Made by a program: the position numbers and the translations under genes | Shown here: in pieces, positions 8,726-47,082 of the stretch | How the letters are laid out: each line of letters opens with the position of its first letter | How positions within the stretch are numbered: the stretch's first letter is position 1 | DNA from: Chloroflexota bacterium | GTDB taxonomy: Bacteria; Chloroflexota; Anaerolineae; Anaerolineales; Anaerolineaceae | Reading direction: 5' to 3' | DNA: 64,000 nt | Assembly: GCA_016887485.1 (NCBI GenBank) | Contig: CP069394.1 | Span: forward strand, 1,178,001 to 1,242,000 | Notes under the pieces: model-generated | Told to the model about the DNA's origin: nothing | The model's database searches: none | Seen by the model: only the letters and a program-made list of their open reading frames with translations

Positions 8726-8749
8726 GAAATGAACAAATGGTTCATACAC

Positions 8750-8859
8750 CTCATCTTCCAGATCCACCCTCTTCGGGGGCTGCCGGAATTGGCACCTGTG
8801 ATCCCAGATCCTGGTTGCCGAGGCTTCAACGGGCCGGTCCCTCCACCTCTCTGGATGAG
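8750..8859 (-). ncRNA. SAM-I (S-box) riboswitch aptamer
   Basis: The minus strand carries the hallmark S-box sequence: AGAGAGGTGGAGGGA, GGCCC, TGAAGCCTCGGCAACC and GGTGCCAATTCC. It is closed by a P1 helix pairing CTCATC (8854-8859) with GATGAG (8750-8755). It lies about 100 nt upstream of metH. From family knowledge, SAM binding stabilises P1 and frees the downstream terminator, switching the methionine operon off when SAM is plentiful. Confidence 0.97.
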
Positions 8860-8874
8860 TTTTCAATCAGACAA

Positions 8875-41202: not shown

Positions 41203-42576
41203 TTAGTATGCCAGATTTATCTCAGGCAACCTTTGGCGGATATCATCTTTGGTTATCTCATAGCCATCTTCTTTGAGGCGACCCTGGTTATAGGCGTCAT
41301 AGGACGCCATATCCAGCAAGCCATGCCCGGAAAGATTAAAAAGGATCACCCGCTTTTCGCCTTTGGCCTTCGCATCCAGCGCTTCATCGATTGCCGCGCG
41401 GATGGCATGAGCTGATTCAGGCGCCGGGATGATACCTTCCGTCTGGGCAAAGATACTGGCGGCCTCAAAGGTTGGCATCTGCGGCACGGCAATAGCCTCA
41501 ATGTACCCTGCGTCATAGAGGGCGCAAATTTGAGGTGACATCCCGTGATAGCGCAGCCCCCCAGCGTGGATCGATGCCGGGACGAAATCATGCCCCAGGG
41601 TGTACATCTTAACCACGGGTGCCATCTTGGCGGTGTCGCCATAGTCGAACGCATAAATGCCCTTGGTCAATGTCGGGGTAGCTTCCGGTTCCACGGCCAA
41701 CAAGCGGGTGTTCTTGCCACCCTTCAGGTTCTCATGCAGGAACGGGAAAGCAATCCCACCAAAATTGGAGCCGCCGCCTACGCAGCCGATCACCACGTCA
41801 GGATATTCACCAGCCAGGTCCATCTGCTTGAGCGCTTCCTGCCCAATCACCGATTGATGCAGAAGGACATGATTCAATACAGAACCAAGGCTGTACTTCT
41901 TTCTGCCCTCCGATTTGACGGCAACTTCCACCGCCTCCGAGATGGCAATGCCCAGCGAGCCAGGATTATTAGGATCTTCTGCCAAAAGCCTGCGTCCATA
42001 ATCCGTGCGATCGGTCGGGCTGGCATACACCTCCGCACCATAGGTCTGCATGATGATCCGGCGATAAGGCTTCTGATCAAAAGAAACCTTCACCATATAC
42101 ACTTCCAGATCCATGTCAAAGAATTTCGCTGCCATGGATAGTGCCGATCCCCACTGACCAGCGCCGGTCTCCGTGGTTAGTGCTTTGGTGCCATCCAGCT
42201 TATTGAAATAGGCCTGAGCAACAGCGGTATTGCATTTATGACTGCCAGAGATGGATGCCCCTTCATTCTTGAAATAAATATGGGCAGGCGTATCCAGGAA
42301 TTTCTCCAGCCTGCGAGCTCGGATCAACGGTGTTGGCCGCCAGAGCTTATAGATCTCCCGGACTTCCTCTGGGATGTCAATGTACCGGTCAGTGCTGACC
42401 TCCTGCATGATCAGGGACATCGGGAACAGCACATTGAGGAATTCCGGCGTGATCGGTTCCAGCGTCTGCGGGTTGAGGACCGGTGCGGGTGGCACCGGCA
42501 GGTCCGCATTGATGTTGTACCAATACTTGGGGATATCAGTATCATTCAAAAGATATTTATATTGTTCGTTAGACAT
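41203..42576 (-). CDS. Tryptophan synthase beta chain, type 2 (TrpB2)
   Basis: PLP enzyme condensing indole with serine. The PLP lysine stands in [20 protein letters not shown] at about residue 115, and [14 protein letters not shown] and GGGSNFGG (phosphate loop) are visible. The 457-residue length, with the long N-terminal part ([14 protein letters not shown]), is that of the TrpB2 branch rather than the TrpA-partnered TrpB1. No trpA is adjacent, so it probably works with indole from elsewhere or as a salvage enzyme. GGAGG 7 nt before ATG 42576 supports the start. Its leader is a tRNA-Trp-sensing T-box. Confidence 0.92.
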
Positions 42577-42630: not shown

Positions 42631-42670
42631 GAAAACAAAAAACGCTCATCCCAGATATGGGACGAACGTT
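42631..42670 (-). terminator. T-box leader terminator
   Basis: AACGTTCGTCCCA and TGGGATGAGCGTT pair in a 13-bp stem (two GU pairs) with a 4-nt loop, followed by a T6 run. The 5' side lies just downstream of the T-box sequence, as in other T-box leaders. Confidence 0.93.
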
Positions 42671-42672
42671 TA

Positions 42673-42962
42673 GTCCGTGGTGCCACCCAGTTTAGGCAAC
42701 CCTTTAATCAAAAAACCCGTTGGTGTGCAACGGGGAAAAGGCCAGCCTCACTCATTACTCAGGTACGGCAGATTGCAACTGCGTATACCATTCACCCTGA
42801 TAACGGCGGTGTGTCCGTTTGAAGCTAATGGTTGCCTTTCGCTTCAAAAACTCCGAGGCCCATTCAACATTCCCGTGTGTACAGCTTCTCACCTTCTGCT
42901 GCTCTCTGTGACACCGTGAAACTGCCTACTCTTCCTCATCAACGTCTGTCTTTATGAGATTG
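42673..42962 (-). ncRNA. T-box riboswitch, tryptophan specifier (TGG)
   Basis: The minus-strand leader of trpB2 holds the Stem I motifs GATGAGGAAGAGTA, AGAGAGCAGCAGAAGGTGAGAAGCTG and a specifier loop GAA-TGG-GCC with the Trp codon TGG at 42860-42862. The T-box core GGGTGGCACCACGGAC (42673-42688) precedes the terminator. UGGC in the T-box pairs with the GCCA end expected of tRNA-Trp. Uncharged tRNA-Trp should allow readthrough, raising trpB2 expression when tryptophan is scarce. Confidence 0.95.
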
Positions 42963-44726: not shown

Positions 44727-46136
44727 CTAGAAATAATCCTTGTCAATGTCTTGCCAGGCCACGCCGTCGGGAATGGTCATGAAAGATGCCAGGCTGGGAT
44801 AAATGCCCGAAATCGCCTCGATCATCTTCAACGCCACCCGCCGGATGGAGAAATGGGCATTCTCTGCAGCCCTCAACCGGCAAAGGGTGAAGGCTTCTCG
44901 CATGTTCAGCGTGAACAGCACCCGCCGATTGAATCCATTGGGGATAATGTAACCGGCCAGATCCGTATTGAAGGCCCATAATTCATTGTAAAGGGATTCT
45001 GCCTGATCCATCGCTTCACGATATGCCACTTCACAACCGGCTTCGATAATCCCTCTCGGCACAGCGTAGCCCAGTAATGCCGTCAGAGGCTGCACCGTCT
45101 GGGTCATCATGCGGTGCCGTTTAAACTCAAAATAGGCGCCCTGATCCATCACCGCTTCAAAGGTCATCTGGGCATACTCAAATTCCCGTATAGGCTGGTC
45201 AAAGGGCCCCCGCTCAGCCATCAGTTCCTGAACCAACGCCTGCCGCCCGGAGTTATCCAATTGACGAATGTAAGACTGGCAGGCTTCAAAGGAAGCCTCT
45301 GGTGAGAATCGGAACAGAATGGCAGCCAGGATCTTCTCTTCACCATCATCATCGTAATCCACCAGGGTGAAGTCACAACTGGGAACCGGCTGCACTTTTT
45401 CCGCTTGCAGGGACATCTTTTCCGTTGTCTTAATCAAATAGGCGTTACAGCCCGCATACTTAATCAGGGTCGGGGCCTCTGCCTTACCGACCTTCAGCAC
45501 CCACTCTCCGATCTGCCGAACCTCGTCCAGTGGAGAGCTGAGCATTTTACAGATGGCATATTCCAGGGAGCGCGCATTGATCGTCACGCCGACATTCGCA
45601 AGAGAGGCCGCTGGCAGCAAAAACCGGCAGATATCTACCGAAGCCGGTTTGATCCGACGCTCATAAGTGACATCGCTCTCCTCCGGGCTCTGAGGAGTGG
45701 TTTTTCGCAGCCAATCCTGCACCCGTGAGATACATAGCTGGTAAGTCTCAAAAAGGTTATGGCAGGTCTGGCTAAATTTCTCCTCCAGGGGCTGCCCTTT
45801 CAATTCTTCGGGGAAATAAAAAGCATCCACATCCCATTGCTGGTAGCGGGTCGATTTTTCTGTATAGGAGGCCAGGCGGTTACCTTCGATGGTCTCTATA
45901 GCCAAACGCGAGACATTTTCCAGGGCCAGATGTAAAACGGCGTGCTCCGCCACAGAGGCGTGCCCATAACCCACAACCCATTTCTCATGGAACTTGGCAG
46001 CGCGGGCATCGGTCAATTCAGCCGCGATCACGTCAAATGCTTCCGGTGAGCGGGAGGTCTTGGCAAAAGCGACAGCTATGGTTTCAGGGCTGAGGTCTCG
46101 GGGGCTGAGTAAATAGATCCGTCTAGGTTTGGTCAT
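44727..46136 (-). CDS. Two-domain ThyX-like FAD-dependent thymidylate synthase
   Basis: A 469-residue protein built of two ThyX-like halves. Half one (about 15-245) keeps the dUMP-binding S-x-R-Y end of the signature (NRLASYTEKSTRY, 86-98) but has Gly-Asn in place of the leading Arg-His of RHR. Half two (about 300-460) keeps RHR (340-342) and the downstream LRAAENAHFSIR region (Arg 422), but has lost S-x-R-Y. The halves thus carry complementary active-site parts. Usual ThyX is a homotetramer of about 220-residue subunits whose active sites are shared. Its stop-to-start overlap of 14 nt with ribF links it to that operon. Confidence 0.8.
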   Translation of the reverse strand: MTKPRRIYLLSPRDLSPETIAVAFAKTSRSPEAFDVIAAELTDARAAKFHEKWVVGYGHASVAEHAVLHLALENVSRLAIETIEGNRLASYTEKSTRYQQWDVDAFYFPEELKGQPLEEKFSQTCHNLFETYQLCISRVQDWLRKTTPQSPEESDVTYERRIKPASVDICRFLLPAASLANVGVTINARSLEYAICKMLSSPLDEVRQIGEWVLKVGKAEAPTLIKYAGCNAYLIKTTEKMSLQAEKVQPVPSCDFTLVDYDDDGEEKILAAILFRFSPEASFEACQSYIRQLDNSGRQALVQELMAERGPFDQPIREFEYAQMTFEAVMDQGAYFEFKRHRMMTQTVQPLTALLGYAVPRGIIEAGCEVAYREAMDQAESLYNELWAFNTDLAGYIIPNGFNRRVLFTLNMREAFTLCRLRAAENAHFSIRRVALKMIEAISGIYPSLASFMTIPDGVAWQDIDKDYF

Positions 46137-47082
46137 GGCTGAATATCCTTCGGGCCGTGGCTTTATCGCGTTCTATTTGAGCGAGAAAAGTCTCTACGCC
46201 AGAGAATTTCTGCTCATCTCTGATCTTTTCAATGAATTTTAGTTCTAAGTGCTCCCCATAGATGTTACCATCAAAATCCAGGATATGCGTCTCAATGTTA
46301 GGCTTCTCCTGGTACTCAAAAGTCGGCCTGAGGCCAACGTTTGTGATCCCATAATAAGTCTTGCCATGGAAGATCGGCTGGGTGGCATAAACCCCGATGG
46401 CAGGCAGTTTTTTACGCGGCCAATGGTCGAGATTGGCGGTCGGCAGCCCAATCCGAGAACCACGGTCGGAGCCGCTTGTCACCGGGCCGTTCACGGAATA
46501 CGGACGACCCAGCATTTCCATTGCACTTCGCATATCGCCTTCATCCAGAGCCTGGCGGATGCGGGTGGACGAAATTTCACCCCCGCCCAGTTCCACAGGA
46601 TTCAGCGCTTCCACAGTAAACCCGATCTCCTCACCAATTTGTTCAAACACAGGGATGGTTCCAACCCGATTCTTGCCCAATGCAAAATTGTTCCCCACGA
46701 TTAGGACCTGCAATCCCAGTTTTTCCTTCAGCGTTTGCAGAAAATCCTCCGGTGAGAGGCTGGCAAATTCTCGATCAAACTGAAAAGTGATCACCTCGTC
46801 CACGCCCATTGCTTTGATTAAGCTCGTTTTTTCCTCCGGGGTCGTCAGGTAATAAGGCTCCTGGGTCCGGCCAAAGAAATCCGCGGGGTTGGGGAAGAAA
46901 GTGATCACAATAGAGGGCATCTCGTTGGAAAAGCTCTTTTGGCCGATTTCATTGATGATAAATTGATGTCCTCGATGGACTCCGTCAAAATTGCCAATCG
47001 TCACAACTGATTTATCGTACGGCAGTACAGGTAAATTGTCAAAACGAGTAAGATTCAATGTCGATTTTTCAGTGCCCGGCAT
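46123..47082 (-). CDS. ribF: Bifunctional riboflavin kinase / FAD synthetase
   Basis: Makes FMN and then FAD. The adenylyltransferase domain (about 20-180) begins with VTIGNFDGVHRGHQ (HxGH nucleotide-binding motif) and includes STRIRQALDEGD. The riboflavin kinase domain (about 185-310) has GLPTANLD and the C-terminal FIEKIRDEQKF. The 319-residue length is typical. It is the last translation-operon gene before the ThyX-like gene, which overlaps it by 14 nt; FAD production and an FAD-dependent enzyme are thereby neighbours. Confidence 0.93.
   Translation of the reverse strand: MPGTEKSTLNLTRFDNLPVLPYDKSVVTIGNFDGVHRGHQFIINEIGQKSFSNEMPSIVITFFPNPADFFGRTQEPYYLTTPEEKTSLIKAMGVDEVITFQFDREFASLSPEDFLQTLKEKLGLQVLIVGNNFALGKNRVGTIPVFEQIGEEIGFTVEALNPVELGGGEISSTRIRQALDEGDMRSAMEMLGRPYSVNGPVTSGSDRGSRIGLPTANLDHWPRKKLPAIGVYATQPIFHGKTYYGITNVGLRPTFEYQEKPNIETHILDFDGNIYGEHLELKFIEKIRDEQKFSGVETFLAQIERDKATARRIFSHDQT

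Follow-up and report, generated by a model that had tools for sequence, protein, structure and literature searches.

Canonical flavin-dependent thymidylate synthases (ThyX), such as T. maritima (Tm) TM0449 and M. tuberculosis (Mtb) ThyX, are homotetramers of ~220-250 aa chains with four identical active sites, and each subunit carries the whole motif. Each site lies between three monomers of the 222 tetramer (PMC3498832). In site 1 of Mtb ThyX, subunit A supplies the RHR stretch 95-97 (R95, H96 and R97) and R199, subunit B supplies S71 and R190, and subunit C supplies R87, S105, R107 and Y108 (review, PMC6514825). According to this assignment, the RHR and the S-x-R-Y of one site come from different subunits, though they are neighbours in sequence. 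Catalytic roles have been ascribed to S88, R90, Y91 and R174 of the Tm enzyme (PMC8316439).

Several departures from this standard form have been described. The accessible part of Valas and Bourne 2009 (PMC3224940) mentions a domain duplication in the ThyX of Chloroflexi, occurring also in a few other species and uncharacterised, which is very probably the same type of protein as the one presented here; that part of the paper describes neither a complementary loss of active-site residues nor an occurrence in phages or on plasmids. Our literature search, which covered few subscription papers, returned this paper as the only one on a duplicated, fused or two-domain ThyX and gave no account of the complementary residue split, which at such coverage is weak evidence of absence. 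The Thermus thermophilus Thy1 of solved structure (6j61) is also a lengthened ThyX, with an extra C-terminal domain. Its chain of 270 aa has a single matched Thy1 stretch, against two here, which rules out a complete second copy of Thy1 as the extra domain. The atypical ThyX of Corynebacterium glutamicum (3fnn, 3ge9) likewise departs from the standard, but it is a single-domain protein whose PDB titles refer to growth dependence on ThyA, whereas no ThyA was found in the genome studied here.

The protein described here has 469 aa and is encoded within a window of 64,000 nucleotides (the whole stretch of DNA that was analysed). Like canonical ThyX it has the Thy1 domain and the fold, and its two domains taken together contain all the residues that serve flavin, dUMP and methyl transfer there; it differs in that these domains have diverged, are fused and hold complementary parts of that set. 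We consider it probable (roughly 0.85) that this is a flavin-dependent thymidylate synthase that arose by ancient internal duplication and complementary loss, and that it works as a two-chain pseudo-tetramer.

The thyX gene and its surroundings

The relevant features are as follows.

44727..46136, minus strand: two-domain ThyX gene, 469 aa; intact ORF with ATG start and two Pfam Thy1 matches
45396..46136, minus strand: N half, residues 1-247, Thy1 domain 1; from Pfam and genome profile matches and from model helices and strands, boundary approximate
44730..45395, minus strand: C half, residues 248-469, Thy1 domain 2; ThyX fold at residues 253-460
46123..47082, minus strand: ribF, FAD synthetase family; its 3' end lies 14 bases inside thyX

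The start codon of thyX is located within the 3' end of ribF, with an overlap of 14 bases; in all Anaerolineaceae loci compared, the two genes are adjacent and overlap. FAD is the product made by RibF. The thyX gene is the last of a minus-strand series, with names assigned by inspecting the translations, that consists of nusA-like, infB-like, DHH-family, truB-like, ribF and thyX genes. The window also contains a T-box leader (113 bits, 42655-42951, minus strand) upstream of a tryptophan synthase beta-like gene (41203-42576), and a SAM riboswitch aptamer (81 bits, 8748-8861, minus strand).

Pfam Thy1 (PF02511) matches the protein in two stretches with a total of 173.6 bits, compared with a gathering score of 24.8, and no Thymidylat_synt domain (ThyA, PF00303) was found by Pfam in the 469 aa. 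When Thy1 was searched against the genome itself, the N half (E 1.1e-27) and the C half (E 2.9e-21) were each above the cut-off alone. The whole protein scores 82.6 bits with the NCBIfam thyX equivalog TIGR02170, below the cut-off of 87.9, which counts against its identification as ThyX; such a near miss is to be expected of a protein with its motif split between two halves.

Partition of active-site residues between the halves

The uninterrupted RHR-x7-8-S-x-R-Y motif is present in neither domain, as RHR occurs in the C half only and S-x-R-Y in the N half only. The positions concerned, as obtained from the alignment (and, for the two motif stretches, from the translation), are listed below.

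45942..45962, minus strand: HASVAEH, residues 59-65, the Tm H53/T55 region; S61, equivalent to Mtb Ser71 (role B), kept in the N half
45843..45884, minus strand: GNRLASYTEKSTRY, residues 85-98; S95, R97 and Y98 kept (role C), Arg-His lost
45624..45626, minus strand: R171, equivalent to Tm Arg147, kept in the N half
45543..45545, minus strand: M198 at the Tm Arg174 position, Arg lost in the N half
45111..45119, minus strand: R340-H341-R342, the role-A flavin-binding motif, kept in the C half
44952..44954, minus strand: G395 at the Tm Arg147 position, Arg lost in the C half
44841..44876, minus strand: LRAAENAHFSIR, residues 421-432; R422, equivalent to Tm Arg174, kept in the C half

In the N-half stretch GNRLASYTEKSTRY, Gly-Asn stands in place of Arg-His and the third Arg is retained (GNR...STRY), and in the C half RHR 340-342 is directly followed by MMTQTVQPLTALLGY, with S-x-R-Y absent. 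The sequence-only reading had already noted an S-x-R-Y preceded by Gly-Asn in one half and an RHR lacking S-x-R-Y in the other, and the translation agrees with it; the split pattern recurs in 113 out of 113 relatives. Two further complementary residues can be added to those it recognized, the equivalents of Tm Arg147 (N half only) and of Tm Arg174 (C half only). We take Tm Arg147 to bind dUMP from the same chain as S88 and R90, in line with its UniProt record. When the two halves are considered together, the alignment accounts for the full set of flavin and dUMP ligands of roles A, B and C.

Two-domain Thy1 ORFs were selected for their profile match and length, irrespective of motif, and sequences more than 90% identical were discarded. 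The resulting 113 relatives come from Chloroflexota, Dadabacteria and Desulfobacterota, from plasmids of Actinomycetota, Bacilli and a Parabacteroides strain, and from tailed phages. Their halves were aligned jointly with 34 canonical single-domain rows, which keep both residue sets save for single substitutions at H96 and Y108. The C half has R95, H96, R97 and R199 (Mtb numbering) in every one of the 113 relatives, seven of them with RHNR. N halves never have the complete role-A set: R95 and R199 are each found in 0 of 113, while 8 still have H96 and 72 still have R97. Conversely, all 113 N halves have S105 and R107, and 110 have Y108; the C halves are without these three residues, save for three stray Ser and the R and Y of one phage protein in a misaligned stretch. 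The Tm R147 position is Arg in 113 N halves and one C half, and Ser or Thr occupies the role-B Ser71 position in 113 N halves and six C halves. Role-B Arg190 was considered as a further marker and proved not to be discriminating (R in 94 N halves vs 74 C halves), which counts against the main reading.

A separate alignment of 43 sequences gave as invariant columns H59, S61, S76, E84, E93, S95, R97, R171, E205 and P222 in the N part and R340, H341, R342, P360, Y396, L421 and R422 in the C part. Judged by sequence, these columns come close to a ThyX active-site list shared out between the halves. Being conserved in 113 of 113 non-redundant relatives, the split pattern is not attributable to chance at the level of these alignments.

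Three motif-like candidates were rejected. An RHR string elsewhere in two N halves is unrelated and not a real motif, an S-x-K-F string in one C half is out of register, and a Geoalkalibacter plasmid ThyX (L157), considered as a lone C half, proved to be an ordinary single-domain ThyX. RHNR in place of RHR represents a one-residue insertion in the flavin motif and occurs in Bacillus/Paenibacillus-type plasmid or phage proteins (L154, L156, L170, L171, L173, L174 and L176). Two-domain ThyX is also encoded by large phages (L159, L160, L161 and L195-L213), including those of Vibrio and Microcystis and uncultivated contigs of up to ~530 kb, and some of these proteins are annotated as hypothetical. 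The split in phages was checked in L159-L161 and in those of the L195-L213 rows that are in the alignment. The product of the phage proteins could be a modified base precursor.

Origin, predicted fold and proposed assembly

The halves of the 469-aa protein are ~11% identical to each other (22 of 195 aligned positions), and each is ~19-24% identical to the canonical rows. When all halves were placed in a FastTree phylogeny, the C halves grouped in a single clade (support 0.99) and 106 of the 113 N halves in another (0.987), and these separate clades point to a single old duplication. The remaining seven N halves belong to longer, divergent two-domain ThyX of Chloroflexota (ORFs of ~560-630 aa; L090, L091, L092, L093, L097, L098 and L100), which show the same residue split; the placement of these N halves beside the canonical sequences is weakly supported. 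These seven may represent a second duplication event or a long-branch effect. Compared with its nearest relative, the gene has a dN/dS of ~0.08 in each half (dN 0.12 and 0.18; dS 1.5 and 2.1), indicating that neither half is decaying and that both are under purifying selection.

An AlphaFold2 single-chain model based on 43 sequences has a mean pLDDT of 94.1 and a pTM of 0.89; it supersedes a model from only 19 close sequences, in which the N half was weak (mean pLDDT 78.7). The C half of the model (residues 253-460) matches T. maritima ThyX 3g4a with Z 15.2 and rmsd 2.4 over 191 residues (VIA-align); this fold match covers the C half alone, and the N half was assigned to Thy1 by sequence. PolB (4p5a/4p5b) is also among the structural matches of the model.

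Comparison with the published subunit roles shows that the role-A set (RHR and R174) sorts to the C half and the role-C set (S88, R90 and Y91) to the N half, so the alignments place the partition in agreement with those roles. It had been proposed from the sequence alone that each half lost opposite residues after duplication, and this interpretation is strengthened by the way in which the kept and the lost residues divide, which follows their subunit of origin in solved ThyX structures. The C half would give what subunit A gives in the canonical enzyme, namely RHR for the flavin and R174 for dUMP, and the N half would give the parts of subunits C and B (S88, R90, Y91 and R147; Ser/Thr55 and H53). 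Two fused chains would then build a four-domain pseudo-tetramer with two complete and two dead sites rather than four sites, as follows from placing the C half as A and the N half as C in 222 symmetry. The earlier suggestion that a working site forms between halves holds insofar as the halves are complementary, but such a site probably does not consist simply of both halves of one chain, because role-B Ser71 is also on the N half; each live site would therefore draw on one C half and on two N halves, one from each chain. We infer that the fused chains would work only as a dimer, that each would bind one FAD, and that the activity would be dTMP synthesis. It is conceivable, if rather unlikely, that the dead sites have taken on a new use, such as regulation by nucleotide sensing or a separate folate/NADPH entry; if so, this would be an asymmetric ThyX with regulation beyond the reach of a homotetramer.

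Thymidylate synthesis and alternative explanations

In profile searches of the source genome (2.9 Mb, 95% complete), neither a second Thy1 protein nor ThyA nor DHFR was detected. The sequence-only reading had named a complete ThyX or ThyA at another locus as a finding that would speak against it, and these searches returned none. The absence of a detected DHFR fits ThyX, as ThyX produces no dihydrofolate. A thymidine kinase is present, so that thymidine salvage is possible, which counts against a firm reliance on ThyX. Among 399 Chloroflexota genomes, tallied by hand from search tables, ~134 have the two-domain protein and 16 have a strong ThyA match, with no overlap; weak ThyA-like matches (E 1e-13 to 1e-15) occur in five of the two-domain genomes. 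For many Chloroflexota, the two-domain ThyX seems to be the sole thymidylate synthase. Counting against the main reading, neither ThyX nor ThyA was detected in G163, a member of the same family whose genome is near-complete and in a single contig. Its ribF locus (L217, G163:C1:2420500-2428500) has an esterase-like gene, with thyX absent. A thymidine kinase is present in G163 too, and this organism may depend on thymidine salvage.

One alternative is that the protein, though of the Thy1 family, makes something other than dTMP, acting for instance as a PolB-like UMP/dUMP methylase or as a hydroxymethyluridylate synthase. The structural match to PolB, the relatives in phages and the proposal made elsewhere that phage Thy1 proteins are hydroxymethyluridylate synthases are in line with it. 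We nevertheless consider it improbable, as the protein is the sole thymidylate synthase candidate of its genome, occurs in about a third of the sampled Chloroflexota and never alongside a strong ThyA, and keeps all dUMP and methyl-transfer residues, shared between its halves.

Even less probable is that one half suffices for catalysis and the other serves as a structural scaffold, the complementarity being incidental decay. In its favour, both halves amount to complete Thy1 domains in sequence and some of the lost positions vary freely, but the full site is present in neither half, and the residues that each half keeps show no variation among several phyla and phages. Moreover, the split tracks subunit roles and not chance, for which eight positions in a single event would give 2 x 0.5^8 = 0.008. 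That the protein is a degraded, non-functional relic of ThyX, as the missed NCBI equivalog cut-off and the related genome without the gene might suggest, is hardly credible given the intact ORF, the purifying selection on both halves, the conserved ribF overlap and the catalytic residues that are invariant in distant phyla.

If the protein is a thymidylate synthase with complementary halves, it would be a natural and ancient counterpart of engineered complementation, with a site divided between two fused and mutually dependent domains, and the three-subunit model of the ThyX site would become testable residue by residue. A ThyX with two sites instead of four would provide material for studies of cooperativity and half-site behaviour. 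The two-domain form is not confined to Chloroflexota; large phages and plasmids also encode it, at times under a hypothetical-protein annotation.
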